DNA from: Nonomuraea gerenzanensis
GTDB taxonomy: Bacteria > Actinomycetota > Actinomycetes > Streptosporangiales > Streptosporangiaceae
DNA: 64,000 nt
Assembly: GCF_020215645.1 (NCBI RefSeq)
Contig: NZ_CP084058.1
Span: 3,534,001 to 3,598,000, forward strand
Reading direction: 5' to 3'
Positions 1,213 through 58,745 of the stretch are shown here, piece after piece; positions within the stretch are counted from its first letter, which is position 1; each line of letters opens with the position of its first letter. The notes beneath the pieces were generated by a model. That model had not been told where the DNA came from. It did not search any database and saw only the letters and a list, made by a program, of their open reading frames with translations. A program made the position numbers and the translations under genes.

Positions 1213-1746
1213 TCAGTGCGCCTGCGGCTGCTGGGCGTCGCTCTGCTCCAGGTCGAGCTCGTCCAGGTATGCCTCCATGGCGTCGTTGAGGACGGCCATG
1301 CCACCCATCTGCTCCTGGTGGCACGCGGCGACGAGCCGCGCTCGCGTGTTCCGCTTGAGCCGCACTACGGAGCCTGGCGCAACCGGACGGTCGCGGGGTG
1401 TGCCAGGCGGCGGCGGGTTGGGGTCACGGGGCACTTTGAGCTTGGCCTTGTCGATGGGCTCGGGGAACACGGCGGGGATGGGCGGCTGCAGCGCGTCGCA
1501 GTAGGTGTTGATCGCCAGTTCCCACGCTTCCTGCGGGCCCATGCCCATGTCGTCGAGGGCGGTGGTGAGGCGGTCGTCGATGTCGCTGTACAGGTAGATC
1601 GTGGTGGGGACGAGGTTTGTCCAGCGCACTGCGCGGAGGCGACGTGGCCCACCTCGGCGGGTCGATTGCGGTTCCGCTGGCGGCTGTTGTCCGGCTGCGG
1701 AGTCCTTGGATGGGTTGAGCTGAGGTGGCTTCGGGGCGCGCGTCAT
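1213..1746 (-). CDS. Putative double ribbon-helix-helix DNA-binding protein
   Basis: A 177-aa protein starting at an ATG preceded by GGAAG six bases upstream; upstream codons in frame look non-coding. After a basic, Pro-rich N-terminal tail come two stretches that each read as strand-helix-helix. One starts at TTIYLYSDIDDRL and ends in a helix AWELAINTYCDAL. The other starts at SVVRLKRNTRARLV and ends in AVLNDAMEAYLDEL. They are joined by a Pro-rich linker. RHH proteins bind DNA as dimers through the beta strand, so two in one chain would give an intramolecular dimer. It is co-directional with tilS, 21 bp upstream of it. The fold is inferred from pattern only. Confidence 0.55.
   Translation of the reverse strand: MTRAPKPPQLNPSKDSAAGQQPPAEPQSTRRGGPRRLRAVRWTNLVPTTIYLYSDIDDRLTTALDDMGMGPQEAWELAINTYCDALQPPIPAVFPEPIDKAKLKVPRDPNPPPPGTPRDRPVAPGSVVRLKRNTRARLVAACHQEQMGGMAVLNDAMEAYLDELDLEQSDAQQPQAH
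1661..1684 (+). promoter_or_regulatory. Dispersed 24-bp inverted-repeat site, copy 1
   Basis: Contains the core GCGGTTCCGC with the flank GATT on the left, matching the dispersed consensus (half-site GCTGATTGCGG, 2-bp spacer, inverted half-site). The right arm is degenerate. It lies inside the coding region of the ribbon-helix-helix gene, so this copy could be chance or a coding overlap. Confidence 0.45.
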
Positions 1747-1986
1747 GCGGGGCTTCCTGTGTGGTGTGTGGCGTGGTTCAACGGTACGGCGTTTCTGCCG
1801 CCGTGTCGTCTTCAACGTGCACCGTAGCGGTCCGATTACTGTATGTCATTATTGGTTTCCTGATTATCCTTATCGATCCCCCACATGTAATATCGAAGTG
1901 ATCGCAGAGCTTCACGATCAACCCCTTCGCCACCTGGTGGCATGCCGCTACCAGCACCAACACCACAACCCGGAGAGGCTCACCGC
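1747..1986. promoter_or_regulatory. Divergent promoter region
   Basis: 240 bp between the reverse-strand ribbon-helix-helix gene and the rightward gene at 1987. Positions 1830-1905 are much more AT-rich than the rest of the window (TTACTGTATGTCATTATTGG and following), as expected for promoters in both directions. I cannot assign -35 and -10 elements with confidence. Confidence 0.4.
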
Positions 1987-2475
1987 ATGGAAACCCGGCT
2001 CTACACCCGCACCAACCCCGACAACGGGCAGATCGAGATCAAGCACTACGAGATCACTCCCGACGCCCAGCCTGACGAGCCCGGTCCGGTCTTCATGACT
2101 CACTTCTGGGGCACCGAAGCTCCGGCCGACTTCTTTACCGCCCACAGCGACTACGACAACGATGACGTGCTGTGCCTCATGGACCTCTACGGGCGCGAAC
2201 TCGACGGACCGCTGGACGAATTCCTCACGGCCACCTGGAAAGAGCACGACGCCGAAGGCTGGGTCCTCCTGCCCTCGCTCCCCGAGTCGCACGAGTACAC
2301 CTGCGCAGGCTCGCCCGTCGCTGTCCTTCGTGCAGATGGCAGCAACCACATCGAGATCGCTGCCCTGCCCGGCAGCCGCACCGTCGAAGGCAGCCTCGAA
2401 AGGATCACTCTCGAAGAGGCCATGGGGCTCATCAACAGCCTCACCGACGCCATCGACGAGGAGAAATGGGCATGA
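1987..2475 (+). CDS. Hypothetical acidic protein
   Basis: A 162-aa protein starting at an ATG with GGAGAGG eight bases upstream. It is strongly acidic and soluble, with no membrane segment. I do not recognise the family. It begins a rightward run (1987-4720) of small, tightly packed genes, and its stop overlaps the next start (ATGA). Confidence 0.75.
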   Translation: METRLYTRTNPDNGQIEIKHYEITPDAQPDEPGPVFMTHFWGTEAPADFFTAHSDYDNDDVLCLMDLYGRELDGPLDEFLTATWKEHDAEGWVLLPSLPESHEYTCAGSPVAVLRADGSNHIEIAALPGSRTVEGSLERITLEEAMGLINSLTDAIDEEKWA

Positions 2476-2846
2476 CCGCCCAGCAGTCCGAGCTGGCCCG
2501 GCGCCCGCGCGAGGTCTTCCGCTTCGGCTTCTACGCGTGGAACATCACCGCCGCCCTGCGCATCGTCGAGGGTCGCGAACCTGACCGCGTCAACGTCAAG
2601 GAGGCCGCCACTCTGCTGTGGCTGATCTACGTGAACGAGTCCCACGCCGCCACCGTGGACCTCGCCCAGCCCGTGCTCCTCGCCCCCTTCGCGGGCGCCG
2701 GTCACATCCCCATCGACGGCTGGCACCGCATCTGGAAGGCAAGACGTGAGGGCGTCGAGACGCTTCCCGCGCTCGCCCTCACGCCCGAGGAGGAATTCCG
2801 GGTCCGGATGCACGGAGGCGATAAAGGCCCTGGTTATTACCGCTAA
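2472..2846 (+). CDS. Hypothetical protein
   Basis: A 124-aa protein translationally coupled to the upstream gene through an ATGA overlap; GAGGAG lies eight bases before the chosen ATG, and an in-frame ATG six bases earlier has a poor spacing. It contains one moderately hydrophobic stretch (AATLLWLIYV) that is too short to call a membrane helix. Family not recognised. Its stop codon lies within a copy of the dispersed 24-bp repeat. Confidence 0.7.
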   Translation: MTAQQSELARRPREVFRFGFYAWNITAALRIVEGREPDRVNVKEAATLLWLIYVNESHAATVDLAQPVLLAPFAGAGHIPIDGWHRIWKARREGVETLPALALTPEEEFRVRMHGGDKGPGYYR

Positions 2847-2865
2847 TAGCGGTACCGCCGTTTGC
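2842..2865 (+). promoter_or_regulatory. Dispersed 24-bp inverted-repeat site, copy 2
   Basis: Left half GCTAATAGCGG, spacer TA, right half CCGCCGTTTGC. It overlaps the TAA stop of the preceding gene and lies upstream of the exonuclease gene. The left flank extends the symmetry locally (TACCGCT AAT AGCGGTA). It is a candidate operator or stoperator-like site. Confidence 0.65.
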
Positions 2866-2914
2866 TTCCTTGCCCGCCCGGGCGGGGAAGCTTCCCCCTC
2901 ACCTGGAGAGGCAC

Positions 2915-4253: not shown

Positions 4254-4301
4254 GCCACAGCGTCACCCACTTCACCTCTCTCTACACCGAAAGGACTCAT
4301 C

Positions 4302-4517: not shown

Positions 4518-4720
4518 CGGCTGTTGACTTCAGCCACCTCGGAGTCACTGACGACCAAGCGCGCGACCTCTTCAAGTTCGGCGCGGCGGCCTGCGCGGCC
4601 GCCGACCTCAAGTTCAACTCGCTGTGGTGGGCCCTCGACCACTTCGAGAACGAGGACGAGCTGGTTGAGACCGGCGCGCAGGTCTGGGAGCGGATCGATC
4701 AGCAGAACGGGAGCGTGTAG
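4514..4720 (+). CDS. Small hypothetical protein
   Basis: A 68-aa acidic protein with a GTG start overlapping the previous stop. It is the last gene of the 1987-4720 run, before a strong terminator. No domain is recognised. Confidence 0.6.
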   Translation: MTAVDFSHLGVTDDQARDLFKFGAAACAAADLKFNSLWWALDHFENEDELVETGAQVWERIDQQNGSV

Positions 4721-4850: not shown

Positions 4851-4914
4851 CTCTTCGGGCGGCTCGTTGAGCCCCTATGTGTCTATAAAGGTTCCCAACA
4901 TGTATGCTTCGGCC

Positions 4915-5400
4915 ATGACGAAACGAGGCCCCCGCGGGCCGGTGCCGATCTACCAGGTGATCATCAAGGCCATCAAGGACGACATCGCCGCCGGCACGCT
5001 GAAGCCCGGTCAAGCCCTGCCCACAGAGGCCGAGATGTGCACCATTCACCAGGCGTCGCGACTGACGGTGCGCAGAGCCCTGGAGGTCCTGCGCGAGGAA
5101 GACGTCATCTACACCGTTCGCGCCGAAGGGTCCTATGTGGGGCCCCGCGACGCCCCGCAGATCCGCGAGCCGTGGGAGTTCGAGAAGATCGCGTCCGAGT
5201 TCGCCGACCGCATCAAGCGGGGCGACCTCAAGCCGGATGAGGTGCTGCCCTCGCAGTCGGAGCTAATCGAGCAGTACGGCGTGGCCAAGAAGACCGCCCG
5301 TGCCGCCATGGCCTTGCTGCGAGATCAGGGGTGGGTGTACACGGTGCCTACGATCGGAACGTTCGTTGCAAGCCGCGATAAATGGCCTACGGAGAGTTGA
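4915..5400 (+). CDS. Transcriptional regulator with two tandem GntR winged-helix domains
   Basis: A 161-aa protein (ATG at 4900 is an alternative start). Residues about 10-75 (PIYQVIIKAIKDDIAAGTLK and on, with LPTEAEM and SRLTVRRALEVL) form a GntR-type winged helix. Residues about 85-150 (EKIASEFADRIKRGDLKPDE, LPSQSELIEQYGVAKKTARA) form a second one. No effector-binding domain follows either, so the molecule could bind DNA as a monomer with pseudo-twofold symmetry. GntR repressors control transfer and kil genes in actinomycete plasmids; a similar role here is inference. A TATAAA box lies about 30 bp upstream. Confidence 0.82.
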   Translation: MTKRGPRGPVPIYQVIIKAIKDDIAAGTLKPGQALPTEAEMCTIHQASRLTVRRALEVLREEDVIYTVRAEGSYVGPRDAPQIREPWEFEKIASEFADRIKRGDLKPDEVLPSQSELIEQYGVAKKTARAAMALLRDQGWVYTVPTIGTFVASRDKWPTES

Positions 5401-6618: not shown

Positions 6619-6653
6619 CAGCGCAGTCACGCGCCATCGGGGAGGGAAACGAC

Positions 6654-7610: not shown

Positions 7611-8135
7611 TCACTCCGGCCGGAGGATGCGCAGTTGGGCACCGTAGGTTTCCAAGGTCGTATTGATCTGGGCCAGCAGGATCGCTTCCATCTGGCTGCG
7701 CTGCTCCTTGGGGACGCCCTTCATGGTCCGTATCTCCTGGAGCATCGCCTGAAACCTCTGCTGAACATGCTCAGGCGTGACATCCGCGTCAATACTGGCC
7801 AGAGCGGAGTCCGTTCTCGTGCGCTCTCGGATCCACTCCTTGAACAGTTCGGCCGCCACCGGCCGGCCCCGCTCGTACAAGTCGTCCGGCGCGATGAGAG
7901 GATCGCCCGCCAAGTCGTTGATCGCGGCTGCCATCAGGACGAGTTCCCGATCCTCCGGAACCTTCTCGCCGGACTCAATGCGTCGCCATGTCGGCTCGGA
8001 GAGCGCGTCGCCGGCCAGGTCTTTCGCGCGCGCGGCGGCGGCGCGGGTGGAGATGCCTCGTTTAAGTCCTCCTGGGTTCTTGCGTCGATCAATGAGGAAT
8101 TGAACCACTTTTGAGGGCTGGCTGATGTCGGCCAC
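7611..8135 (-). CDS. XRE-like repressor, candidate immunity repressor
   Basis: A 174-aa protein with a GTG start. Residues about 25-80 (STRAAAARAKDLAGDALSEP, TWRRIESGEK) read as a helix-turn-helix of the XRE type in the style of actinobacterial regulators. The C-terminal half is helical and may dimerise. It is transcribed away from the early operon, and its own promoter (TTGATA, 17 bp, TATGAC) carries the TGACGC/GCGTCA motif that also overlaps the early promoter. This is the arrangement of a phage repressor controlling a switch. The repressor role is inferred from context. Confidence 0.7.
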   Translation of the reverse strand: MADISQPSKVVQFLIDRRKNPGGLKRGISTRAAAARAKDLAGDALSEPTWRRIESGEKVPEDRELVLMAAAINDLAGDPLIAPDDLYERGRPVAAELFKEWIRERTRTDSALASIDADVTPEHVQQRFQAMLQEIRTMKGVPKEQRSQMEAILLAQINTTLETYGAQLRILRPE

Positions 8136-8418: not shown

Positions 8419-8718
8419 ATGCCCATCGGCATCCTTCGCTGGGAAGACCCGGCGCCCGTCAAAACCCACATCAACAAGGAGTACGAGCCGATCGCCGCCG
8501 AACTGCAGAAGAACCCCAACCGATGGGCTGTCGTCGCAGAAACTCCCGACACCCCTGAGGGCAGGCGTGACGCCAACCGCCTGTACAACGCCGTCAAGAA
8601 TGGCTACCGCGGCTTCCGCAACGACGACTGCGGAACATTCCAGGCGCGCACTCGCACCATCACCAAGGACGACGGCGGCAAGGCCGTCCTCGTCCACGTC
8701 CAGTACGTCCCCCGCTAA
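8419..8718 (+). CDS. Hypothetical early protein
   Basis: A 99-aa protein, the first gene of the rightward early operon behind the switch promoter. It is basic and soluble, with no domain recognised. Its TAA stop lies in a copy of the dispersed 24-bp repeat. By position it could be a Cro-like or other immediate-early protein, but no HTH is visible. Confidence 0.7.
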   Translation: MPIGILRWEDPAPVKTHINKEYEPIAAELQKNPNRWAVVAETPDTPEGRRDANRLYNAVKNGYRGFRNDDCGTFQARTRTITKDDGGKAVLVHVQYVPR

Positions 8719-8737
8719 CAGCGGTGCCGCAATCAGC
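8714..8737 (+). promoter_or_regulatory. Dispersed 24-bp inverted-repeat site, copy 3
   Basis: Left half GCTAACAGCGG, spacer TG, right half CCGCAATCAGC (a perfect consensus half-site). It covers the stop of the preceding gene and abuts the ATG of the next one at 8738. Confidence 0.75.
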
Positions 8738-9103: not shown

Positions 9104-10077
9104 GCGTCCAGATCCGCGAGGACGAGCGCGACGAGCACGACCCGAGCCACGCCGTACCGACCAGCGCGGGCCGCTACTACTGCGACCCCATGCTGGGCCC
9201 GGACGACCCGCACCGGATGAAGATCTCCGTCACCAACGCCATCGACCAGCACATGATCGAGGCGCTGGCCCCGGCCGCCGCGCGGGACACCGCGATCTGG
9301 CTGATGGACAACCTCCCCAACGCGATCCGCGCGGCCGGTGACCCCGACGACATGGAAGCGTTCATCAAGCTGGCCAAGGCGCAGTACCGAGTCCAGTGGG
9401 ACAAGAAGGCCGACCTCGGGAGCCGGGTCCACAACATCGCGGAGGCGATCAACCTCGGCGCCCCGTACATCCCGGACGAGGAGGCCGCCCCGTTCGTGGA
9501 CTCCTACCTGGAATTCCTGCGTGACTTCGGGGTGGACATCCGCCGCGACATCAAGGCGGCCGAGTGCACGGTCATCAACCGCACCATCCCGTACGCCGGT
9601 ACGAGCGACATCTGGGCCGACCTGCGGTTCCCCGGCCCGACGTCGCCCATCATCCCGAAGTTCAAACCTCGCGCGGTCCCGGCCGACCCGCTCCCCACGC
9701 CGTCCGGGCTGTGGCTCGTGGACATCAAGACGAGCCTCACCAAGCCGGCCAGCGCCGTCTACGAGGACCACGTGATGCAGCTCGCCGCGCTGCGGCACGC
9801 AGAAGTCGCGCTCATCTGCCCGCCAGAGTGCAGGTACGGCGAGAGCGACAACCACGACGCCAGCCACGAGTTCGCCGTCCCGCCGTTCGTGGGGGCAGCG
9901 ATTCTCAACCTCCGGGAGACGGGCTACGGCTTCGTGCCGCTCCCGGCCGACCAGGACGCGTTCTCCGCGTTCTGCGGGCTGCTTCCGCTCGCGCGCTACG
10001 TCCACGGGCTCGAAATGCGCGGCTTCAAGCCGATTCAGCCCCCGAGCAAGACCACCACCAGGAAGGACGCCGCCTGA
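9100..10077 (+). CDS. PD-(D/E)XK-superfamily nuclease (Cas4/RecB-like phage exonuclease)
   Basis: A 325-aa predicted metal-dependent exonuclease. Visible RecB-type nuclease motifs are HNIAE (H111, E115), GTSDIWADL (D170), VDIKTS (D208, K210) and HVMQLAA (Q227), in the order and spacing of the PD-(D/E)XK fold of phage exonucleases. It has a GTG start and is directly followed by the gp3-like gene. In actinophages this pair sits at the head of the recombination/replication module. It probably resects double-strand ends. No iron-sulfur cysteine cluster of the Cas4 type is seen. Confidence 0.85.
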   Translation: MSVQIREDERDEHDPSHAVPTSAGRYYCDPMLGPDDPHRMKISVTNAIDQHMIEALAPAAARDTAIWLMDNLPNAIRAAGDPDDMEAFIKLAKAQYRVQWDKKADLGSRVHNIAEAINLGAPYIPDEEAAPFVDSYLEFLRDFGVDIRRDIKAAECTVINRTIPYAGTSDIWADLRFPGPTSPIIPKFKPRAVPADPLPTPSGLWLVDIKTSLTKPASAVYEDHVMQLAALRHAEVALICPPECRYGESDNHDASHEFAVPPFVGAAILNLRETGYGFVPLPADQDAFSAFCGLLPLARYVHGLEMRGFKPIQPPSKTTTRKDAA

Positions 10078-11783
10078 TGCCCATCGACCCCTCCGTACTG
10101 CAGCGCCGCCACTGGCAGGACGGCCGGATCCGTCTTGGCATCAAGAAGATGAGCCGGAACGGCAAGGAGTACCCCAGCAAGATTGACACGTTCCGGTTCA
10201 CGTCGCCGTCCGAGGACATGATCCGGGGCGTCGCCGAGAAGTACGGCGGCGAGGTCAAGCCGTGGAAGTCGCCGCAGGGCCCGCAGTTCGAGGTCATCAC
10301 CAACGCGCAGCGCATCCCCGTCATCGTCCCGCCCAACGGCCTGAGCCAGAACATGGAGCTCTGGGACGGCAAGCTGTGCATCCGTCGCTGCACCGGCGTC
10401 GCGATGCAGGCCCCGTTCGTCGGCCCGTGCCTGTGCGGGGCAGACGTCGAACTCAAGAGACGGCCGTGCAAGCCGCACACCCGGCTCGGTGTCTTCCTCA
10501 AGGAAGTGCCCAGCCTGGGCCTGTGGCGGCTGGACAGCAAGGGCGGCAACGCTGCGGCAGAGCTGCCGAATGCCGCCGAGTTCCTAGCCCACGCGGGAAC
10601 GTACGTGGACGCCTGGCTGTACGTGGCCGAGCGCACCGGCTCGTTCCTCGACCCGAAGGACAACGTGGTCAAGGCCACGACGTACATGGTGCCCGGCCTG
10701 ACGATCGAGGGCATCGGCTTTGACGAACTGATGTCGGGCGAGGTCGCACGCCGCGCCGAACTGGGCCGCGGTGGCGGTGGTCAGCGGGCGATCGAGGCCG
10801 CGCCCGCGACCGACTACCTCAAGATGATCGAGGCGGCCGCAGACCGAGACGCCGTCGAGGCGATCTGGAGGACGTCCAAGCTCGACCCCGCCTGGCAAGG
10901 TCGGGAGCAGGAAGTGGTGGCCGCTGCCAAGGCGCGCGTCGCCGCCTTCCCCCCGCAGCCGGAGAAGAACGCGCCGCAGGGGCAGCCCGCCCCCGCAGCC
11001 CCGCAGCCGGGCGAGGCCCCGCGCCGAGAGGAGCCTCCGCACAGTCCGCCGCAGGGGCCGGACGCGCCGCCGGCGGCGAGCGACCCCGAAGCCGACCGCA
11101 TCCGCCAGCACATCATGACCGCCTGGTCCGGCACGACGAGCCAGCTCCACACCGTATTCCGCGACCGCACCGGCACCACCATGAAGGCCGCCACCGTCCA
11201 GCAACTCCAGGAGTTCGCCGACAACCTCGGCCAGCCCGCTGCTGGTCCGATCGCGGACGAGCCCCGCAAGGCGTCTGAGCGAGCCGAAGCGCTCCTCGAG
11301 GCCGCCCGCGCGCAGAACACCGCGGCGGCCGACGACGGCGACGACATCGTAGACGCGGTGGTCGTCGAGGACGAGGAGCAGCCGAAGCCCACCGCCAAGG
11401 CGCTGCGCGACCTCGGGGTGTGGTTCGGCGAGGCCGGCGTCACCATCCACACCGGCAAGGGTTCGGCCGCGAAGAACGACGAGGCGCGGTTCGCCTGGAT
11501 CGTCGAGCACCTGGGCGTCGAGGTGACCTCGACGAAGGAGCTCAGCGCCGAGCGGGTGGACACCGGTGTCAAGCTGCTCATGCAGCAGGCCGCCGCCCGC
11601 CGGAAGGACCTGCAGCAGCGCATCGTCAACGTCTGGTCCGACCTGGACGGCAACAACCAGCAGCTTTCGGCCGCGTTCGAGCAGCACATGGAGAAGCCGG
11701 TCGGCGAGGCCACCAACGCCGACCTCGCCGCATTCCTGCAGAAGCTCAGCAACAGCGAAGTCACCCCCGGCGGCGGCCAGTGA
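10077..11783 (+). CDS. phiC31 gp3-like protein (recombination directionality factor family) with long C-terminal extension
   Basis: A 568-aa protein. The N-terminal 230 residues match the pattern of the gp3-like actinophage family: RIRLGIKKMSRNG, SKIDTFRFTSPS, YGGEVKPW, IPVIVPP, SQNMELWDG, a cysteine set (RRCTG, GPCLCGADVELKRRPC) likely to bind zinc, and TRLGVFLKEVP, LGLWRL. In phiC31, gp3 reverses the direction of the serine integrase. The rest (about 240-568) is Ala/Pro-rich linker plus two related helical segments around residues 345-385 and 520-565 (IMTAWSGTTSQLHTVF and IVNVWSDLDGNNQQLSAAF). This window has a tyrosine, not a serine, integrase, so the family's main role here may be recombination or replication. 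Confidence 0.8.
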   Translation: MPIDPSVLQRRHWQDGRIRLGIKKMSRNGKEYPSKIDTFRFTSPSEDMIRGVAEKYGGEVKPWKSPQGPQFEVITNAQRIPVIVPPNGLSQNMELWDGKLCIRRCTGVAMQAPFVGPCLCGADVELKRRPCKPHTRLGVFLKEVPSLGLWRLDSKGGNAAAELPNAAEFLAHAGTYVDAWLYVAERTGSFLDPKDNVVKATTYMVPGLTIEGIGFDELMSGEVARRAELGRGGGGQRAIEAAPATDYLKMIEAAADRDAVEAIWRTSKLDPAWQGREQEVVAAAKARVAAFPPQPEKNAPQGQPAPAAPQPGEAPRREEPPHSPPQGPDAPPAASDPEADRIRQHIMTAWSGTTSQLHTVFRDRTGTTMKAATVQQLQEFADNLGQPAAGPIADEPRKASERAEALLEAARAQNTAAADDGDDIVDAVVVEDEEQPKPTAKALRDLGVWFGEAGVTIHTGKGSAAKNDEARFAWIVEHLGVEVTSTKELSAERVDTGVKLLMQQAAARRKDLQQRIVNVWSDLDGNNQQLSAAFEQHMEKPVGEATNADLAAFLQKLSNSEVTPGGGQ

Positions 11784-15613: not shown

Positions 15614-15637
15614 ACCAGAAGCGGAACCGCAATCAGG
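15614..15637 (+). promoter_or_regulatory. Dispersed 24-bp inverted-repeat site, copy 4
   Basis: Right half CCGCAATCAGG nearly perfect, core GCGGAACCGC intact, left arm degenerate. It lies in the 46-bp gap between two HTH genes. Confidence 0.55.
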
Positions 15638-19637: not shown

Positions 19638-19661
19638 GCTAATAGCGGTACCGCTATCGTT
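19638..19661 (+). promoter_or_regulatory. Dispersed 24-bp inverted-repeat site, copy 5
   Basis: Left half GCTAATAGCGG, spacer TA, right half CCGCTATCGTT. Located 2 bp after the J-protein stop and about 20 bp before the initiator start, so a bound protein could control initiator expression. Confidence 0.72.
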
Positions 19662-19681: not shown

Positions 19682-20698
19682 GTGGCTCCCTTGGAATACC
19701 AGCACGTAAGGGGCCTGATGGGTTACAAGTTGGCCGACGAGGTGGCGATCAACGCGCCTAAGAGCACGCCTCCGAGGGACCTGCTCGCGTTGATCGCCAT
19801 CGCTCGCAGGATCAACGACGCGACTCGCACCGGCTGGCTGACCCGCGAGGAGATCGCGCACTGGGCGAGGATCGACGTGCGGTCGGTGAAGGCGATGCGG
19901 GAGCGGCTGGTCGAGGCCGGTCTGCTCGTCGTGCTCGAATCGGGGGGCGGCCGCCGGAAGGCGACCGTGTTCTACATCCCGCCGATGCCCGGGTACCTGC
20001 CCGGGCAGCCGCCGCGTCCGCTGGACCTGGAGCTCGAAGCGGGCCCCTCGGACTTCCCCGTTTCGGGGCCGGACGGGTCCACGGGGGACCGGAAAGGGGG
20101 AAGTCCAGACTTCCCCGTTTCTCCTGTGGATGACGCTGTGGACAACCGGGAGACCGGTGGAAAAGGGGGAAGTCCAGGCTTCCCCGTTTCCGCGACCGAA
20201 AGGGGGAAGTCTGGACCGCAAAAGGGGAAGTTTGGGGTCAAAAGGGGGAAGTCTGGACTTCCCCCCAATCCTCTCTCCACTCCTCAACTTCAATCCTCTT
20301 CATCTCCGTACGGGGTCGAGGAGGAACCGGACCGGCCAGCCGCCGACCACCACCCAGAAGACGACAAGATCAGTAAGGGGGAGAAGAAGGACACCCCGGC
20401 GGTCAGCCGCGCCGCCCGGGTCATCACCAAGCGCATCGGAGTGCCGCTCGACGAAGCCGAGCGCATCGCCCAGACCATCGCCCACGAAAACCGCGTCCGC
20501 CGGGCCCTGCACGTGTACGTCGCGGGCATCCCCGCAGCGGACCTGCGCACCTGGCGCGAGACCGCCCGCAACCACGAAGCCCGCGAACAGGCCAAGGCCA
20601 CACGCACCAACCGCCCCGCCGGCCGGTGCAACCTGCACTGGCAGCCCATCCCCTGCATTGGGTGCGCGGCCGACGCCAAGGCCATGCCCGACGCGTGA
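19682..20698 (+). CDS. Replication initiator-like winged-helix protein (lambda O-like layout)
   Basis: A 338-aa protein. Residues about 1-105 form a winged helix (LLALIAIARRINDATRTGWL, TREEIAHWARIDVRSVKAMR, ERLVEAGLLVVLESG). A low-complexity linker at about 125-215 is encoded by DNA full of iterons. A C-terminal helical region ends with a possible zinc site (CNLHWQPIPCIGC). A wHTH N-terminus plus iterons in the middle of its own gene is the lambda O arrangement. GTG at 19682 is the longest start; ATG at 19718 is possible. No helicase loader gene follows. Confidence 0.75.
   Translation: MAPLEYQHVRGLMGYKLADEVAINAPKSTPPRDLLALIAIARRINDATRTGWLTREEIAHWARIDVRSVKAMRERLVEAGLLVVLESGGGRRKATVFYIPPMPGYLPGQPPRPLDLELEAGPSDFPVSGPDGSTGDRKGGSPDFPVSPVDDAVDNRETGGKGGSPGFPVSATERGKSGPQKGKFGVKRGKSGLPPNPLSTPQLQSSSSPYGVEEEPDRPAADHHPEDDKISKGEKKDTPAVSRAARVITKRIGVPLDEAERIAQTIAHENRVRRALHVYVAGIPAADLRTWRETARNHEAREQAKATRTNRPAGRCNLHWQPIPCIGCAADAKAMPDA
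20051..20308 (+). other. Candidate replication origin: iterons, DnaA boxes and pyrimidine-rich tract
   Basis: Forward iterons AAAGGGGGAAGTC start at 20093, 20162, 20199 and 20241, with a variant (AAAGGGGAAGTTT) at 20221. Inverted copies (GACTTCCCCGTTT or close) start at 20051, 20108, 20178 and 20256. Three forward/inverted pairs are dyads with 2-3 bp between arms, and the last three forward iterons are 20-22 bp apart (two helical turns). TGTGGACAA at 20137-20145 is the complement of the actinomycete DnaA box TTGTCCACA, and TGTGGATGA at 20125 is a near match. A strand-asymmetric pyrimidine tract follows at 20261-20305. All of it is inside the initiator gene. Confidence 0.8.
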
Positions 20699-20926: not shown

Positions 20927-21267
20927 CACCCCACAGAACGCTCTGAGGTGGACGCAGAGGGACAAACACCGGTCCTCCGGTATCGAGGTGTACCTCCGGG
21001 ATGGGGGAGCGCTCTACGTCGATCTGAGAGCGTTCAATCAAGATTAAGAGTTGGGAATGCGAGCCGGGGCTGGATGGCGCGTCGGCGGTCGGCGGTCTAG
21101 GCGATTCTGTGCCAATGCAGACGATCAGCCGTACCGACTATCAGTAGAACGCCTGTTCGATTTGCCCTCCGGCCGGCCCATTTTGTGATCTAACCGTTAT
21201 AAAGCCGCCGGAAAACCGTTACAGAAATTGGGCCCCCCAAAATCCGCACTGGTCTACCGTTTGTCAT

Positions 21268-22164
21268 GTGCAGATACGAACAAGCGAACGGCTCGCGTGG
21301 CTCACCGCAGTTGCGGCGCTCGCGTTCCTAGTAGCGAACACGCAGGCAGGAGGGGATGTGACCACGGCAACGCTGGTAGCGGACGAACCAACCGCGACCG
21401 TCACTGTCAGCGGTCCCCCCGGCCCGCCCGGACCCCAGGGCCCCCAAGGCGACCCCGGGCCGATGGGCCCCCAGGGACCGCAGGGCGAACCCGGCGCGTC
21501 CGGCCCGCCCGGACCCCAGGGCGACGCCGGGCCGATGGGAACCCCCGGACCTTCCGGGCCGCCCGGACCCCAGGGCGACCCCGGCCCAACGGCGACCGTC
21601 ACCGCCGTACCGGTCCCCGGCCCCAAGGGCGACAAGGGCGACGCCGGACCCCAGGGCGAGCAAGGGCCCGCCGGACCGTCCGGCCCCCCGGGACCGTCCG
21701 GCCCGCCCGGCCCCCAGGGCGAGCAGGGCGACACCGGACCCAAGGGCGACCCCGGACCGACCGGACCCCAGGGCGACCCCGGACCCACCGGAAGCGCCGG
21801 ACCGTCCGGCCCGCCCGGCACCGGCGACCCCGGGCCGACCGGAGCCGCAGGGCCCGCCGGACGGGACGGCACCGCAGGGAGCCCCGGCCCTTCCGGCAAG
21901 CCCGGATCGCCCGAACCCAAGGGCGACCAGGGCGACCCCGGAACGGCGGACACGCCGGAACCCGGCAAGATCGACGCGGCGAACACGGCCAACGGCGACC
22001 CCGTGACCGTGTGGGCCGCGTGGCTTGCCGCCCTGCTGGCAGTCGGAGCCGCCACGCTCGGACTGCTGATCAGGCGGCGACGCCGCAACCGCAGAGCGGC
22101 CAGCGAAACCGCTGGTCAGCCTGCTAACAGCGGTTCCGCTATCGACGACACACGGCAGCTCTAG
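21268..22164 (+). CDS. Collagen-like protein with C-terminal membrane anchor
   Basis: A 298-aa protein. A short N-terminal hydrophobic helix ([15 protein letters not shown]) is followed by about 160 residues of Gly-X-Y repeats ([16 protein letters not shown] style) with one non-collagen interruption near 115-122. A C-terminal membrane helix follows ([21 protein letters not shown]), then RRRRRNRR. The layout predicts an extracellular triple helix anchored in the membrane with a cytoplasmic tail. It lies outside the virion genes, between replication and integration modules, so it may be expressed by the lysogen on the cell surface. GTG start, no clear ribosome-binding site. Confidence 0.8.
22123..22146 (+). 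promoter_or_regulatory. Dispersed 24-bp inverted-repeat site, copy 6
   Basis: Left half GCTAACAGCGG, spacer TT, right half CCGCTATCGAC. It lies in the last codons of the collagen-like gene (encoding ANSGSAID), so the operator is tolerated as coding sequence. Confidence 0.68.
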
Positions 22165-23801: not shown

Positions 23802-24554
23802 GTGTCTGGTCTTGCTTCTGGGGTGTCGGTGGTGTCGGGCGCGTGTGTGGGTCCGTGTAACGCGAGGTCGCGGCGGGCGTGGGCTGCTTTCGAGGCGGCT
23901 CGTGATGAGCATGCGGACGCCGTGGATGAGTGGGTACGGGCGGGGGAGTCGGGGGAGCCGCCGGTGGAGCCGGAGGTTCCGGAGGTTCGGTGGCGGCCGG
24001 GGGAGCCGTTGGTGTGTGGTCGGTGTACGGCGTCGGTGCGGGCGGCGTTGTTGGAGGTGGACGCGTTCGCTGCGCAGCTCGCTCGGGAGGCGGATGGGTT
24101 CCGGCCGCCGTCGAAGTGGTCGAGGGTGTCGGGGTCGCGGCCGAAGCCTGCGGTGTCGCCGGTGGGGGAGCTGCTGGAGAAGCTGACGGGCGGGCTGCTG
24201 GAGTTCGAGGATCGAGCACGGGTGTGGTTGGGGGCTGGGTCGCGTCTGGGCGGCGCGAGGTCGGCGGTGGCTCGGTCGCGTGCGGTGGGCTGGCTGTCGG
24301 AGTCGGGTCGGCTGGAGAGCGTCTTGGTGCGGGAGGACCTGGTGGGCCTGGTGGACTTCGCTCTGTCGTGGCGGCTGGTGTTGGAGCGGCTGGTCGGGGA
24401 TGAGCCGCCTGCGTGGACGCCGGCGCGGTGCCGGTGTGGTGAGCGGTCGTTCCGCTGGGATGTGAAGGCGGGCTTCTACGTGTGTGCCGCGTGTGGGTCG
24501 CACGTTTCGGAGCGGGAGGCGTCGGCGAGGGTGGAGGAGGAAGCGGCTCGTTGA
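23802..24554 (+). CDS. Zinc-ribbon protein of actinophage type
   Basis: A 250-aa protein (GTG start chosen; upstream codons in frame look non-coding). Cysteines at the N-terminus (CVGPCNARSRRAW) and CGRCTAS, and a C-terminal zinc ribbon (CRCGERSFRWDVKAGFYVCA then CG). This Cys-frame with a long helical middle is familiar from integrative elements and phages of actinomycetes; function unknown. Codon choice is strongly G-ending (GTG, CGG, TCG, GGG) while neighbours prefer C, which suggests a separate origin. Confidence 0.7.
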   Translation: MSGLASGVSVVSGACVGPCNARSRRAWAAFEAARDEHADAVDEWVRAGESGEPPVEPEVPEVRWRPGEPLVCGRCTASVRAALLEVDAFAAQLAREADGFRPPSKWSRVSGSRPKPAVSPVGELLEKLTGGLLEFEDRARVWLGAGSRLGGARSAVARSRAVGWLSESGRLESVLVREDLVGLVDFALSWRLVLERLVGDEPPAWTPARCRCGERSFRWDVKAGFYVCAACGSHVSEREASARVEEEAAR

Positions 24555-24573
24555 TTGCGGTGCCGCTGTCGGC
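24550..24573 (+). promoter_or_regulatory. Dispersed 24-bp inverted-repeat site, copy 7
   Basis: Left half GTTGATTGCGG, spacer TG, right half CCGCTGTCGGC; overlaps the TGA stop of the zinc-ribbon gene. Confidence 0.6.
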
Positions 24574-26653: not shown

Positions 26654-27670
26654 ATGAGCAACCACGGAAGCGACCGGCTCCACCCGGCCGCTACCGGCCT
26701 ACCCGGTACTGAGCTGGCTGAGGCGCCACGCGCCGCCCTCGCGTTACCGCTCGATCTCCCGCCGATCATCCTCGACTTGACCCGCGCGTGGCTGTGGTCG
26801 TACGACTCGCCGAACACGCGCGAGGTGTACGAGCGGAACATCCGCCGGTGGTTCGAGTTCTGCGCGGAGACCGGCCTCGACCCGCTGGAGGCGCGCAAGC
26901 CGCACGGCGACGTGTTCTCCCGCTGGTACCAGGAGACGGCCCGCCGGCCGCCGAAGCCGAAAACGGTCGCTCAGGTGCTGTCGTCGGTGTCGTCCTGGTA
27001 CGAGTACCTGCACGCGACCGAAGCCCTCGACGCCAACCGGTTCAAGAAGACGCGGCGGCCGAAGATCCCGCGCAAGCACTCCGAGACGGTCGCGCTCACG
27101 AAGACGGAGGCGCAGGACTTCCTGCGGGCGGCCGACGCCGACCACGGCCGGGAACGGCTGCGCACCTCAGCGCTGCTCCGGCTGCTGCTGCAGACCGGCA
27201 TCCGCATCTCCGAGGCGATCAACGCGCAGATCGACGACCTCGGGTACGCCCGCGGCTATCGGACGCTGCGCATCACGGTGAAGGGCGGCGACACGATCAC
27301 CCGACGTCTGCCGGTGGAGACGACGCACGCCCTGGACGTCTACCTCGCCGAGCGGGCGCGCCGCGAAGGGGTCGAGCTGCAGGACCTGGCGGGCCCGCTG
27401 TTCGCGACCTCGACAGGCCAGCGCTGGAGCAGGTCGAAGGCGTTCGAGCTGGTCCAGCGCATCGCCAAGCAGGCGGGCATCACGTCGAAGGTGTCGCCGC
27501 ACTCCCTGCGGCACACCTACGCGTCGCTGGCGCAGGAGGCCGGCGTCGCGATGCGGCAGATCCAGCTCGACCTCAACCACGCCGACGTGTCCACGACGGA
27601 GATCTATTTGCACAGCCGGGATCGGCTGGAGAAGGACGCTTCTCAGGTGGTGGCGTCGCTGTTGGAGTAG
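26654..27670 (+). CDS. int: Tyrosine recombinase / phage integrase
   Basis: A 338-aa site-specific recombinase. N-terminal SAM-like core-binding domain (TRAWLWSYDSPNTREVYERN and on), then the catalytic domain with R184 (TGIRISE), K210 (VKGGDT), H283 and R286 (HSLRHTY), H309 (LNHAD) and nucleophile Y318 (TEIYLH). All six key residues are present, so it should be active. Size and pattern are XerC/XerD-like, without an arm-binding AP2-like N-domain. ATG chosen at 26654 behind AAAGG; an in-frame ATG five codons earlier is possible. Confidence 0.92.
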   Translation: MSNHGSDRLHPAATGLPGTELAEAPRAALALPLDLPPIILDLTRAWLWSYDSPNTREVYERNIRRWFEFCAETGLDPLEARKPHGDVFSRWYQETARRPPKPKTVAQVLSSVSSWYEYLHATEALDANRFKKTRRPKIPRKHSETVALTKTEAQDFLRAADADHGRERLRTSALLRLLLQTGIRISEAINAQIDDLGYARGYRTLRITVKGGDTITRRLPVETTHALDVYLAERARREGVELQDLAGPLFATSTGQRWSRSKAFELVQRIAKQAGITSKVSPHSLRHTYASLAQEAGVAMRQIQLDLNHADVSTTEIYLHSRDRLEKDASQVVASLLE

Positions 27671-41315: not shown

Positions 41316-41339
41316 GCTGATTGCGGGACCGCAATTAGC
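41316..41339 (+). promoter_or_regulatory. Dispersed 24-bp inverted-repeat site, copy 8
   Basis: Left half GCTGATTGCGG (perfect), spacer GA, right half CCGCAATTAGC (one change). It lies in the 50-bp gap before the major capsid gene, so a bound protein could silence the most expressed late gene in the lysogen. Confidence 0.78.
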
Positions 41340-44653: not shown

Positions 44654-44677
44654 GCTGATTGCGCTGCCGCAATCAGC
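44654..44677 (+). promoter_or_regulatory. Dispersed 24-bp inverted-repeat site, copy 9
   Basis: Arms GCTGATTGCG and CGCAATCAGC are perfectly symmetric (10 bp each) around CTGC. It lies in the gap before the major tail gene. Best-symmetry copy in the window. Confidence 0.8.
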
Positions 44678-46567: not shown

Positions 46568-48930
46568 ACGTGGGCGAACTCTTCGCGACCATCGACGTGA
46601 AGGACCGGGGCACGAGCAAGGTCAGCCGCTTCATGGCCTTCATGCGCGACGCCGCGAAGAAGCTCGACATCGACGTGGGCAAGCTCGGCAAGTCGGCCGC
46701 CGCGACGGGCGCCAAGTTCACTGCCACGGCGCTCCAGATGTCCTCCATGGCGGCCTCAATGGCTGCGGCCGCGCAGGGCGCGGTCGGTCTGGTCGCGGCC
46801 CTGGCCCCGGCGGGAGGCATCGTCGCTGCCCTGCCGGGCGTGATCGCACTCGGTGTCGGCGCGATGGCCACCCTCAAGGTTGCCCTGCTCGGCGTCGGGG
46901 ACGCCTTCGGCGCAGCCCTGGGCGACGACCCGAAGAAGTTCGAGGAGAGCTTGGCCGGGCTCTCACCTGCGGCGCAGGCCGCCGCGCGTGAGCTGCGCTC
47001 GGTCAAGCCCGCGATCGACGGGCTGCGGTCCGCCGTCCAGGACGACTTCTTCGCGCCGCTGGCCGGCCAGATCCGAGCTGTAGCGGACGCCGTGGTCGGG
47101 CCGCTGCGCAGCGGAATGCAGGGCGTGGCGCGGGAGTTCGGTCTCGCTGGCGCGGAGGCGGCGCGGTTCGCCTCCTCCTCGGCGACGGTGGCGGCGATCT
47201 CGTCCATCTTCGGATCGCTGCGTTCGGCGGTCGCTGCACTGCAGCCCGCCATCCAGCCCGTGCTGGCTGGCTTCCGCGACATCGCTGTGGTGGGCGCGTC
47301 CTTCTCCTCCGGGCTGGCTCCCGGCATCGCTTCAGCGGCTCAGCGGTTCGGAGAGTTCCTATCGAACGCTGCTAACAGCGGTACCGCACTTAGCTGGATG
47401 CAGGGTGCGCTGGACGTGTTCAAGCAACTCGGCCAGGTCGGTGGCGACGTGATCGGCATCTTCAAGTCGATCTTCTCGGCGATGTCCTCCGGCGCGTCGG
47501 GGGCGCTGGGCGCGATCGGCCAGCTCCTTGATCAGCTCAACGCGTTCCTGGCCAGCGCGCAGGGTCAGCAGGCCCTCGTCGCGATCTTCGGCGCGTTGTC
47601 GCAGGTCGGAAGCGCCTTGATGCCGATCTTCCGAGCGCTCGGAGGCTCGCTCGCGCAGGTCGCACCGCACATCGGCGCCATCGCGACGGCGCTCGGTCCG
47701 GGGCTCGCTGCTGCGGTCTCCGCGCTCGGGCCAGCCCTGGCGGCCTTGGGTCCGGGGCTGACCATGGTCGCCCAGATGCTCGCACAAGCGTTCGCGAGCC
47801 CTGAGCTGCAGTCCGGCCTGCTCATGCTGGGGCAAGGGCTCTCCGCGGCTCTGGCTGCGGTGGCTCCTCTGCTGCCAGTGGTAGCGCAATTAGCGGGGAT
47901 CTTGGGCCAAGTACTCGGCATTGCGCTGAGTAATCTCTCGGCTGCGCTCGGTCCGGTGATCAGTGCCTTGTCGAGCGCCCTACAACCGGCCCTGGCGTCC
48001 ATTTCGTCCGCTTTTGCCCAACTAGGGCCCGCGATGCAGCCCATTTATGCAGCTTTTGGGCAGATTGCAGGCGCAATCGTGCAGTCTGTGCTGCCGCCGA
48101 TCTTGCAGCTCGTCCCGTCGCTGCTGGATGGGCTAGTTCCTGCCTTTGTCGAACTGATCAATGCTGTTAATCCGCTTATTCCGCTCTTGACCGATTTGCT
48201 GGTCATGGCGATCAAGGACATCCTGCCAGCGGTCGTCCCCGTCATCCCGATCGTGACCCAACTCGGAGTCGCCTTCGTGCAGATGGGCGCCAAGGTGGCC
48301 CAGATCGTCGCGCAGATCAAGCCCGCCATCGAGGCCGGAGTCGCGATCTTCCGCTGGATGTACAACGTCCTTGTCGGTCACAGCGTGATTCCAGACATGG
48401 TCAACGCCATCGGCACGTGGATCGGGACGAAGTTGGTCGGCTGGTTCACCGCGCTGCCCGGCAAGATCAAAAACGCGATGTCGTCCATAGGCCCGACCAT
48501 GGCAGGCATCGCCTCGGACGTCGTTTCCGGCTTCTGGAACAAACTCCAGTCGCTGGCCAGCGGCCTGTACAACAACGTCCGCAACTTCTTCTCCAACATC
48601 GTCAAGAGCGCCAAGGACGCCCTCGGCATCAAGTCGCCGTCGAAGGTGTTCGCCCAAATCGGAGCCTTCATGATGCAAGGCATGTCGATCGGCGTGGACA
48701 AGGGCCGCGGAGTCGTCGTGTCCTCGCTGAAGAAGGTGGCCACGCTCGCGACGCGGACCGCGATGCCAGACCTGTCGGTGCCCGGCGTAACCGTCCCGGA
48801 CGGTCTCGGCGGGGGTCGCGCCTCGTCGCGGACGGTAGTGAACGTGACGAACCACTACCCGCAGGCCGAACCGACCTCCGTGACCGTGAACCGGTCGCTC
48901 CAGTACGTCGGCGCAATGGGGGTGATCTGA
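46558..48930 (+). CDS. Tape measure protein
   Basis: A 790-aa protein setting tail length. N-terminal charged segment, then long hydrophobic helices (LVAALAPAGGIVAALPGVIA), many Ala/Leu/Gln-rich repeats through residues 230-520 and a C-terminal region with an aggregate of short hydrophobic helices. At the usual 0.15 nm per residue the tail would be near 120 nm (inference). GTG start with GGAGGTGAG upstream. Copy 10 of the 24-bp repeat is inside it. Confidence 0.92.
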   Translation: MALNVGELFATIDVKDRGTSKVSRFMAFMRDAAKKLDIDVGKLGKSAAATGAKFTATALQMSSMAASMAAAAQGAVGLVAALAPAGGIVAALPGVIALGVGAMATLKVALLGVGDAFGAALGDDPKKFEESLAGLSPAAQAAARELRSVKPAIDGLRSAVQDDFFAPLAGQIRAVADAVVGPLRSGMQGVAREFGLAGAEAARFASSSATVAAISSIFGSLRSAVAALQPAIQPVLAGFRDIAVVGASFSSGLAPGIASAAQRFGEFLSNAANSGTALSWMQGALDVFKQLGQVGGDVIGIFKSIFSAMSSGASGALGAIGQLLDQLNAFLASAQGQQALVAIFGALSQVGSALMPIFRALGGSLAQVAPHIGAIATALGPGLAAAVSALGPALAALGPGLTMVAQMLAQAFASPELQSGLLMLGQGLSAALAAVAPLLPVVAQLAGILGQVLGIALSNLSAALGPVISALSSALQPALASISSAFAQLGPAMQPIYAAFGQIAGAIVQSVLPPILQLVPSLLDGLVPAFVELINAVNPLIPLLTDLLVMAIKDILPAVVPVIPIVTQLGVAFVQMGAKVAQIVAQIKPAIEAGVAIFRWMYNVLVGHSVIPDMVNAIGTWIGTKLVGWFTALPGKIKNAMSSIGPTMAGIASDVVSGFWNKLQSLASGLYNNVRNFFSNIVKSAKDALGIKSPSKVFAQIGAFMMQGMSIGVDKGRGVVVSSLKKVATLATRTAMPDLSVPGVTVPDGLGGGRASSRTVVNVTNHYPQAEPTSVTVNRSLQYVGAMGVI
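47371..47394 (+). promoter_or_regulatory. Dispersed 24-bp inverted-repeat site, copy 10
   Basis: Left half GCTAACAGCGG, spacer TA, right half CCGCACTTAGC. It is inside the tape measure gene, coding for ANSGTALS, the same peptide start (ANSG) as in copy 6. As a roadblock it would stop late transcription mid-gene. Confidence 0.7.
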
Positions 48931-56734: not shown

Positions 56735-57396
56735 TGCCTTTGACCTGGACCCTGTGGGATGCCGAGCTGTCGTACGGTCCCGTCTACTACTCACAAAGGG
56801 ACGCGGCCCGCGCTAACCCGCTGGGCGCTGAGCCGCTGTGGGGCGTCGCGGTCGTCAAGGAAGACGGCAGCAGGTTCCTCAAGACGTTCCCGCACAGCAC
56901 GCTGGAGTGGCGGTCCGCCGAGTACGGTATCGACCCGGACGACAAGGACACCCTGCTCGACGTCATCCTGCACGAGAGCTACATCCCGCGCGAGGACGAC
57001 CCGCTCGCCCTCATAGACCCGGCCTCGGCGAAGATCCTGACCGAGACGCGGGACATGCCGACCTGCTGGACGCCCGGCGTCTCGGACAAGGACCGGCTGG
57101 ACGCCCACCTGGCCCGGATCGCCGCGGTGAAGAAGCACCGTGTGCGGCTGGACCCGGCCAGCATGGATGACCGACAGGGCGCTCTCGCGTTCGTGGGGTC
57201 GCGTCGGATCGCGCCGGCTGACCCGCTGGACCTGATCCGTGCGGCACAGCTCGACCCGATCCGGGTGGAGTCGCGGCGCCTGGCAGTGAAGTGGGCCCGC
57301 TCGACAGGCGGTATGGCTCAGGAGCCGAACTTCCTGTTGAAGCCGCCGGACGCGTTTCTGGGCATGCCGACCGAGATGGGCGCTGCGTCGGTATGA
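56734..57396 (+). CDS. Tail-module protein, module 2
   Basis: A 220-aa protein; ATG doublet at 56731 and 56734, second preferred for ribosome-binding-site spacing (GGGAG). Starts LTWTLWDAELSYGPVYYSQR. Mostly helical at the end. No recognised domain; by position a tail-tip or receptor-binding accessory. Confidence 0.65.
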   Translation: MPLTWTLWDAELSYGPVYYSQRDAARANPLGAEPLWGVAVVKEDGSRFLKTFPHSTLEWRSAEYGIDPDDKDTLLDVILHESYIPREDDPLALIDPASAKILTETRDMPTCWTPGVSDKDRLDAHLARIAAVKKHRVRLDPASMDDRQGALAFVGSRRIAPADPLDLIRAAQLDPIRVESRRLAVKWARSTGGMAQEPNFLLKPPDAFLGMPTEMGAASV

Positions 57397-57731
57397 CCGA
57401 GGAGACGCCCAACCTCGCGCTCGCCCTCGCGGAACTGCGCAGCGCGGTTGAGCTGGGGTTCGAGCGCACCAACGGCAGCACGGCGTTGATCCTGCAGCGC
57501 CTCGAATGGGTGGACGATCGGCACGCCGAGCTGGTCAAGCGCGTCGAGGAGGACCGCGCGGCGGCCGAGCTCCGGTACGTCGCGATGGAGGGGCGCCTGG
57601 ACGCGGTGGAGCGGGAGGCCGTGACTCGCACGCAGTTGGCCGAGCGGACGCGGCAGATCATCGCCGTCGTCACCGTCCTGGTTGCCGTGGCGGGCGCGGT
57701 GATCGCGCTGATCCAGCTCACGCGCGGCTGA
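57393..57731 (+). CDS. Coiled-coil protein with C-terminal membrane helix
   Basis: A 112-aa protein, coupled to the previous gene by ATGA overlap. Coiled coil (ALILQRLEWVDDRHAELVKR, YVAMEGRLDAVEREAVTRTQ) then one membrane helix (IIAVVTVLVAVAGAVIALIQL). This is the XhlA/holin-accessory plan, and the amidase gene follows 32 bp later, so it may help lysis. Confidence 0.72.
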   Translation: MTEETPNLALALAELRSAVELGFERTNGSTALILQRLEWVDDRHAELVKRVEEDRAAAELRYVAMEGRLDAVEREAVTRTQLAERTRQIIAVVTVLVAVAGAVIALIQLTRG

Positions 57732-57763
57732 CCAGCCGCGACGACACCAAGGAGGACATCGCC

Positions 57764-58726
57764 ATGCCATGGCTGACGCAGCTCGCCGACATCGCCCGCC
57801 GGACGGGCTTCCCAGTGACGGAGGTGGGAGGCTGGCAGAGTCGCGGGCACGGACCGCAGCCCTCCGTGGAGGGGGTGGTCTGCCACCACACCGCCGGGTG
57901 GAATGACCGGCACATCGTTGTCCACGGCCGCCCCGGACTCGATGGGCCACTGTCGCATATATGGCTGCAGCACACCGGCCGAATCTGGGTCGTCGCCGCA
58001 GGCCGGTGCTGGCACAACGCGCCGAGCACCAGTCCGCACCACATGAACTCGACGAGCATCGGCATCGAGGCCGAGAACGACGGTCGCACGCCATGGCCCG
58101 ACGTGCAGATCGACGCCTACGAAGCGCTGTGCGCGGAGCTCTGCCGAGAGTTCGGCCTGCCGCCCTCGCGGGTGAAGGCCCACAGGGAGGTCAACACCGG
58201 CAAGCCGGACCCTCACTCCATCAACATGACCCACTTCCGGGAGCGCGTGGCCGCACTGATCAAGAGTCCCGGAGCCCCGACCAAGCAGGAGGAAGACGTG
58301 CCCGAGGTCATCTCTCTGGGTGCCGGTGAGGACCAGGAGGCCCCGGCCGGCGGCGAGCTGGCGGTGCGCTGGCACACCGAGTACACCGACGACCCGCCCG
58401 GCCACAACGCGGACGGAGTCGCCGTCATGGCCAAGGCCGCGCGTTGGTGCATCGTGGACGGCCTGGTGAAGATCCGCGGGCTGAAGCCCGGTACGGAGAT
58501 CGACGTGGCCTGGTCTCGCTACTCGCGCGACGGCAAGACGTTCGAGGACGACGCCTGGCGGCTGTCCTTCCGCGCCGACGCCAACGGGCGGGTGGAGGAG
58601 TCCGTGGGCGGCCAGTTCGCGCTCAACACCAAGAACCAGCTCCGGCTCCGGATCATTAACCCGACCGACGCTGCGGCGGTAGTCGAGAAGGTGACCATGG
58701 CCAAGCTCGCGATGTTCAACCGCTGA
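57764..58726 (+). CDS. Endolysin: N-acetylmuramoyl-L-alanine amidase
   Basis: A 320-aa lysin cleaving the amide bond between N-acetylmuramic acid and the stem peptide. The N-terminal amidase_2 domain (about 10-165) has the zinc ligands in VVCHHTAGW, WVVAAGRCWHNA and the later AHREVNTGKPDPHSIN, plus SIGIEAEND. The C-terminal 140 residues form a beta-rich part (YTDDPPGHNADGVAVMA, LRLRIINPTDAAAV) that may bind wall polymer. ATG behind AAGGAGG. No signal peptide, so it depends on the holin. Confidence 0.92.
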   Translation: MPWLTQLADIARRTGFPVTEVGGWQSRGHGPQPSVEGVVCHHTAGWNDRHIVVHGRPGLDGPLSHIWLQHTGRIWVVAAGRCWHNAPSTSPHHMNSTSIGIEAENDGRTPWPDVQIDAYEALCAELCREFGLPPSRVKAHREVNTGKPDPHSINMTHFRERVAALIKSPGAPTKQEEDVPEVISLGAGEDQEAPAGGELAVRWHTEYTDDPPGHNADGVAVMAKAARWCIVDGLVKIRGLKPGTEIDVAWSRYSRDGKTFEDDAWRLSFRADANGRVEESVGGQFALNTKNQLRLRIINPTDAAAVVEKVTMAKLAMFNR

Positions 58727-58745
58727 TAGCGGTTCCGCTTTCGAC
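58722..58745 (+). promoter_or_regulatory. Dispersed 24-bp inverted-repeat site, copy 11
   Basis: Left half GCTGATAGCGG, spacer TT, right half CCGCTTTCGAC. It overlaps the TGA stop of the endolysin and precedes the last two late genes. Confidence 0.72.

Follow-up and report, generated by a model that had tools for sequence, protein, structure and literature searches.

The 64-kb window analysed here, a stretch of the Nonomuraea gerenzanensis genome taken at its full length (G000:C1:3534001-3598000), is the middle part of a ~97.6-kb prophage in a genome of 12.07 Mb, and carries a dispersed array of 24-bp inverted repeats that can be set beside several described systems. The conserved inverted repeats of the Streptomyces phage phiC31, which serve here as a lead only, are dispersed intergenic palindromes bound by the phage repressor, including its own operator; in repeat sequence and repressor family they probably differ from this array. 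TraY of the F plasmid acts at oriT and at one promoter.

L5-like Cluster A mycobacteriophages and Cluster A Gordonia phages carry 20-30 stoperators per genome, mostly off promoters and many of them in short gaps, with one near the repressor gene, and the divergence of the motif tracks that of the repressor (PMC6550527, PMC9283540, PMC5559632). The L5 stoperator is 13 bp long and asymmetric (PMC9283540, PMC6550527), is oriented with transcription and is bound by a monomeric helix-turn-helix (HTH) repressor (PMC6550527, PMC9283540, PMC5559632). Cluster O mycobacteriophages (Corndog), described as lacking an integrase, contain 34 copies of the 17-bp palindrome TGTTCGGNNNCCGAACA at positions that are mostly conserved among five phages; about a third of the copies lie inside genes, most are not near promoters, and their function is unknown (PMC4351075). 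On the Streptomyces plasmid pIJ101, the DNA-binding protein SpdA2, which has zinc-finger-like matches, recognises the sps palindrome within the gene that encodes it, and this leaves a signature in the amino-acid sequence; the sps sites are 12 bp long, form 2-3 repeats at one gene and affect plasmid stability (PMC4170104).

Like L5 stoperators, the repeats described here occur in many copies (16 over 91 kb) on a temperate phage genome, with no coupling to promoters seen in scans that are weak; unlike them, each repeat is a 24-bp palindrome, and its binder is probably a ribbon-helix-helix (RHH) protein. Because L5 sites are asymmetric 13-mers, we do not file the array as an L5 stoperator, and regard it as a stoperator-like, palindromic and probably RHH-bound array that probably works like one. 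The resemblance to the Cluster O palindrome lies in symmetry, dispersion and partly coding locations, whereas the sequence and length of the palindrome differ, the Cluster O phages are without integrase, and no counterpart of gene 40, which encodes the candidate binder, turned up in the phage collection at E 0.1. As in SpdA2/sps, a palindrome lies within the coding sequence of the candidate binder, but the present array is genome-wide whereas sps is confined to one gene. Gene 40 shares with TraY the tandem RHH arrangement, and the best structural matches of its model are chains E-G of F-relaxosome entries, but it is only ~15% identical to them and its array extends over the whole genome, in contrast to the two sites of action of TraY. 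We propose, with a probability of roughly 0.6, that one phage-encoded protein, most likely this TraY-like tandem RHH protein, binds the repeats and acts mainly by blocking elongation in the lytic operons.

The prophage carries 16 copies of the repeat

The prophage is bounded by a 14-bp direct repeat at 3512759 and 3610394, of which the left copy adjoins a tyrosine integrase gene and the right copy a gene for a small HTH_17 protein; the same 14-bp repeat is present at the int-xis junction of a circularly permuted contig in a related genome (G003:C11). The gene content includes terminase, portal, capsid, major tail, tape measure and endolysin. The initial annotation had listed 11 copies of the repeat in the window, with the half-site GCTRATWGCGG. 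All 11 coordinates carry the repeat, but the list was incomplete: a symmetric 24-position matrix, derived from 77 sites in five phages, finds 16 sites over ~91 kb of the prophage, 12 in the window (the addition being 47871) and four outside it, at contig positions 3516499, 3518086, 3522013 and 3607985. The two inverted 11-bp halves are better written GYTRAYWGCGG. The sites in the window are as follows (scores from the 77-site matrix; synonymous test described below).

1661-1684: 5' coding tail of gene 40 (tandem RHH); score 22.7; same place in 8/9 phages; synonymous test P = 1 × 10−4
2842-2865: over the gene 42 stop codon, before gene 43; score 26.9; 9/9 phages
8714-8737: over the gene 54 stop codon, before gene 55; score 32.0; 9/9 phages
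15614-15637: weak site between genes 66 and 67; score 16.4; position occupied in 7/9 phages
19638-19661: between genes 74 (DnaJ domain) and 75; score 31.6; 6/6 testable phages
22123-22146: upstream of gene 76, over the stop of the open reading frame (ORF) 21228-22127; score 31.7; 8/8 testable phages
24550-24573: over the gene 78 stop codon; score 28.5; 8/9 phages
41316-41339: directly before the major capsid gene (97); score 33.1; 9/9 phages
44654-44677: directly before the major tail protein gene (105); score 31.1; 9/9 phages
47371-47394: tape-measure gene, codon 271; score 31.2; 7/9 phages; synonymous test P = 2.5 × 10−5
47871-47894: second site in the tape-measure gene, codon 437; score 23.3; site near here in 5/9 phages; synonymous test P = 5 × 10−6
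58722-58745: over the endolysin gene (116) stop codon, before gene 117; score 32.3; 7/7 testable phages

Four of the 11 initially listed sites lie in gaps (15614, 19638, 41316 and 44654), as had been reported, but by the ORF list and gene calls five rather than four cover an upstream stop codon (2842, 8714, 22123, 24550 and 58722), always with TRA at site positions 3-5, and two rather than three lie inside genes (1661 and 47371), to which 47871 is now added. Fifteen of the 16 prophage sites score 22.7-36.8, and 10 of the 11 initially listed score 22.7-33.1; the exception in both cases is 15614, at 16.4. With an earlier matrix of 14 sites this site scored 14.4, compared to a top score of 17.2 among 30 first-order controls of the window, and it would not be accepted from its score alone; we accept it because the same position is occupied in 7/9 phages.

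Second-order Markov controls (5 per sequence, 5 sequences) never scored above 16. In the 12.07-Mb genome, the pattern with up to 3 mismatches was found at 16 places, 13 of them within 3516499-3608008, whereas the three places outside the prophage score just 9.2-10.7 and the reversed-pattern control likewise gave 3, so that outside the prophage the genome holds background-level matches only. Across 345 genomes of the order, matches with at most 1 mismatch occur in 20, compared to 4 for the reversed pattern, with one match each. The Markov controls and the reversed-pattern control over the 345 genomes rule out chance or a GC artefact. The repeat array is real and larger than first noted.

Site positions are conserved among related phages

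Related stretches were taken from nine other genomes, of which eight were tabulated and one (G212, 20 kb with 2 sites) was left out; some relatives are split over several contigs and hence incomplete. At a score above 16 we counted 17 sites in G036, 17 in G003, 13 in G043 and 17 in G038, and at a score above 15, 13 in G203, 15 in G049, 17 in G322 and 14 in G006. Gene order is collinear in all four relatives that were compared gene by gene. When 18 positions, set after the site maps were seen, were tabulated in nine phages including the present one (score >14), 126 of the 143 testable position-by-phage cells were occupied, with the site in the gene 40 tail counted twice in two cells (41up in G003 and G203). 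Conversely, 126 of 142 sites fall at one of the 18 positions, the windows of which make up ~2.5 kb of ~97 kb. Intragenic sites are mostly fixed to the codon (tape measure codon 271, FtsK-like codon 35, and gene 23 codon 78 or adjacent), and for the second tape-measure site the codon is 437 in four phages and 401 in G003.

Single matches in two genomes (G031 and G052) adjoin remnants of phage genes; what remains in G031 is one site with a broken gene 40, next to fragments of genes 33-35. A further remnant, in G046 (L122:9652-10421), retains gene 40, two sites and gene 37 as well as fragments of two more phage genes; nearly all phage genes are gone within the 20 kb examined there, yet gene 40 and the two sites persist. 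The single matches in G055, G057, G122, G214, G258 and G009 lie at loci in which no phage gene was found (12.4 kb of G122 and 7.8 kb of G009 were searched again), and may be due to chance.

Selection acts on the DNA sequence of the coding sites

In random synonymous re-encoding of 29 coding sites, the observed score was reached with P ≤ 7.5 × 10−4, and with P ≤ 2.1 × 10−4 for all but one; sites scoring <15 and frames with a stop codon were omitted, and gene 23 of G006 and G203 is absent from this set. Plain third-base identity at the coding sites showed no excess, which we attribute to the R, Y and W positions that the motif itself permits, and the re-encoding test was used instead. Three relatives have a similar tape-measure peptide but no motif, and therefore the protein does not force the motif. 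The coding sites are subject to selection on the DNA sequence.

The two halves of the palindrome vary independently, which identifies the repeat as a DNA-binding site and not an RNA hairpin. Summed over mirror positions, the frequency of Watson-Crick pairing among 75 distinct sites was 8.04, compared to 8.25 expected from independent halves, and at site position 7 the combinations A/T or T/A occurred 35 times vs. 36 times for A/A or T/T, the opposite of what an RNA stem would give. With observed pairing the same as for independent halves and no compensatory change, RNA hairpins and intrinsic terminators were ruled out. A scan of the window against Rfam returned zero families at the gathering score.

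Sites are not tied to promoters

Alignment of 80 sites along the direction of transcription shows clear information within the 24 bp only, with no TANNNT box at a constant distance from the sites. The lytic strand has 18 promoter-like sequences in seven phage stretches, and a single one of them, in G049, overlaps with a site. Given that no flanking base is conserved and that promoters rarely overlap sites, stoperators, that is, elongation roadblocks, fit better than promoter operators. A promoter-linked operator or activator site was rejected on the same two observations (no conserved flank, 1/18 overlaps), from scans that are weak at this GC content; some sites may still be operators because the promoter scan is weak at 67% GC.

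Upstream of gene 40 lies the following candidate, which rests on consensus matches only.

1848-1891, minus strand, toward gene 40: two overlapping sigma70-like promoters

One of these two is also present in G036, and none is near a site in five other relatives scanned. Site 1661 is 157-172 bp downstream of the start inferred from these promoters, inside the coding region, a layout that suggests a roadblock rather than a classical operator, and the site is likely to be autoregulatory. The likeness to L5 stoperators pointed out in the initial annotation extends to conserved DNA sites that occur over the whole element, at gene ends and inside late genes, and are not welded to promoters; it does not extend to the form of the site, which is palindromic, unlike the 13-bp asymmetric site of L5.

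Gene 40 is the best candidate for the binding protein

Three regulators had been put forward as possible binders, and the evidence singles out the double RHH protein among them.

1213-1746, minus strand: gene 40, tandem RHH protein of 177 aa, best candidate binder and putative repressor
4900-5400, plus strand: gene 48, double GntR winged-helix protein (Pfam), not the first-choice binder
7611-8135, minus strand: gene 53, XRE-like protein with an HTH_31 match below the Pfam cut-off; nearest site 8714; not the first-choice binder

The gene 40 product has two strand-helix-helix units in one chain. It has no Pfam match at 0.01, no PHROG match at 0.05, no significant sequence match in the PDB and no match in phage or plasmid collections at E 0.1. 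The best structural matches of its model, at ~15% identity, are the F-relaxosome chains E-G, which we take to be TraY.

We ranked 61 genes present in at least 8 of the nine phages by the correlation between protein distance and motif distance. Gene 40 is at the top (r = 0.76), followed by gene 37 (r = 0.72), ~1.7 kb away, and genes 111, 93 and 88, whereas genes 48 and 53 rank 13 (r = 0.54) and 19 (r = 0.50). With mean genome distance held constant (35 genes in all nine phages), the partial correlation for gene 40 was 0.71, and 0.72 when its tail was left out, compared to 0.51 for the next gene, 0.31 for gene 48 and 0.23 for gene 53. In a bootstrap over sites, gene 40 came first in 47% of the runs, with a median rank of 2. 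Label permutation reached the value of gene 40 in 0/5000 cases, with P = 0.0002 for gene 48 and P = 0.002 for gene 53 (these P values ignore shared descent).

The co-divergence can be followed to individual residues. At site position 4, A is found in 72 of 156 half-sites in phages with the first RHH strand xYLY, vs. 7 of 126 elsewhere (a count that includes G212, whose gene 40 was not recovered); at site position 6, A is found in 31 of 64 with a strand starting PTS, vs. 8 of 92 with one starting PTT or PTM. Strand residues 49 and 51 of gene 40 co-vary with site positions 6 and 4, respectively, with shared descent ignored, and in an alignment of the two RHH units they align with residues 127 and 129, alternate positions of the second strand. 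Alternate strand positions are where RHH proteins touch DNA. In contrast, G043 and G049 have near-identical gene 48 (distance 0.01), although their motifs differ at position 6 (P = 0.008, shared descent ignored), which speaks against gene 48 as the binder.

Proposed mechanism and alternative explanations

The two RHH units of a gene 40 chain would form a single two-stranded sheet that reads one 11-bp half-site, so that two chains would occupy each palindrome. Expression of gene 40 in the lysogen would come from its own leftward promoter, and the protein would occupy the 16 prophage sites and act as the lysogenic repressor; once bound, it would halt RNA polymerase during elongation in the rightward lytic operons, as L5 stoperators do, and the site within the 5' coding tail of gene 40 would keep synthesis of the protein in check. 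We favour action mainly by an elongation block because the sites lie at gene ends and inside long late genes, and not on promoters. Direct binding, the elongation block and immunity are the steps that we infer; the evidence shows the sites, their positional conservation, selection on the DNA, their character as DNA sites, the lack of promoter linkage in the scans made, and their co-divergence with gene 40. More tentatively, and with odds somewhat against it, a TraY-type tandem RHH protein derived from plasmid transfer may be the immunity repressor of a family of ~95-100-kb actinomycete phages that also occur as circular elements, silencing mainly by palindromic roadblocks at ~18 fixed positions with a specificity set by two strand residues, which would make it the first RHH-based stoperator system.

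The main rival, which we consider unlikely, is that gene 40 does occupy the sites, with the array helping to maintain the circular form (through segregation, partition or DNA architecture) instead of silencing lytic genes. TraY-like and other RHH proteins act at plasmid sites, the G003 element is a circularly permuted contig, that of G036 is a separate 96.7-kb contig, and one homologue is annotated on a 94-kb Microtetraspora plasmid. SpdA2 of pIJ101 binds a palindrome in its own coding region and affects segregation (PMC4170104). However, the sites are singly spaced over ~91 kb and unclustered, they stand at the ends of genes and ahead of capsid, tail and early genes, no ParA family was found among the 50 element proteins scanned with Pfam (part of the gene set), and the element in N. 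gerenzanensis is integrated between its 14-bp repeats. The sites could also be regulatory but bound by another phage protein, such as that of gene 48 or gene 53, both of which are present in all nine phages and correlate with the motif; their ranks and partial correlations, the constancy of gene 48 in G043 and G049, and the nearest sites to the two genes in the prophage (2842 and 8714), none of which adjoins them, make this rather improbable.

Two further accounts carry much less weight. That the sites are boundary sequences kept for recombination or gene-cassette exchange would agree with the many sites at gene ends, including the five window sites with the stop codon in the same register, but sites also hold to fixed codons within the tape-measure, FtsK-like and gene 23 frames, and the collinear gene order in the four relatives speaks against exchange; we regard it as very improbable. 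RNA hairpins, as intrinsic terminators or processing sites, could form near-perfect stems at some sites, but pairing is not kept, the halves are independent and the window has no Rfam family at the gathering score, which leaves this explanation with hardly any probability.

A literature search that covered few subscription papers found no paper combining 'ribbon-helix-helix' and 'stoperator'. The sites are probably bound by a phage protein of a kind not known to fill this role. Dispersed palindromes to which no function has been assigned are described from other actinophages (Cluster O). If the proposed roadblock is correct, silencing of a whole prophage by roadblocks has evolved with unrelated DNA-binding folds. 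With conserved sites, a candidate protein that can be named and natural variants in specificity, this phage family makes binding, elongation block and immunity directly testable.

Other features of the prophage and of distant relatives

A distant phage-plasmid, the 88-kb plasmid NZ_CP109440.1 of Streptomyces sp. NBC_01483 (L115/L116), has a palindrome of its own, TTSTATTRCGCGCGYAATAGAW, in five dispersed copies, compared to none in five Markov controls, and one copy lies directly before a WYL-domain gene. Streptomyces phage Hiyaa (L118/L119) has ~20 dispersed ACTTGCG..CGCAAG-like inverted repeats vs. 11-12 in controls, in a palindrome search the positive control of which failed; a background-weighted search did not recover this repeat.

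In addition to its left-end integrase, the prophage encodes another tyrosine recombinase, as well as a recombination directionality factor of the Gp3-like type (window 26654-27670 and 10077-11783). A leftward cargo block (window 59439-63955, minus strand) with SHMT, PhyH-like, LPG-synthase-like (below cut-off) and methyltransferase genes contains zero sites, and the phage carries a gene for a TilS-like tRNA-lysidine synthetase (window 190-1182, minus strand). A 1043-aa C-5 cytosine DNA methylase with a Hint/LAGLIDADG intein-like insert is encoded at L020:12201-15332. The right end (L021:4324-12368) encodes a GntR-UTRA regulator, a WhiB-like protein, a weak FtsK/SpoIIIE-like translocase and the HTH_17 protein, a gene set that resembles transfer modules in conjugative elements of actinomycetes. 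Over 62% of its length the translocase shares 38% identity with one from the Nonomuraea plasmid-phage PhiNon1 (PMC5431353). Within the called frame of gene 75, three AGGGGGAAGTC..GACTTCCCC-like palindromes lie in 180 bp (window 20093-20266), and could be origin iterons.

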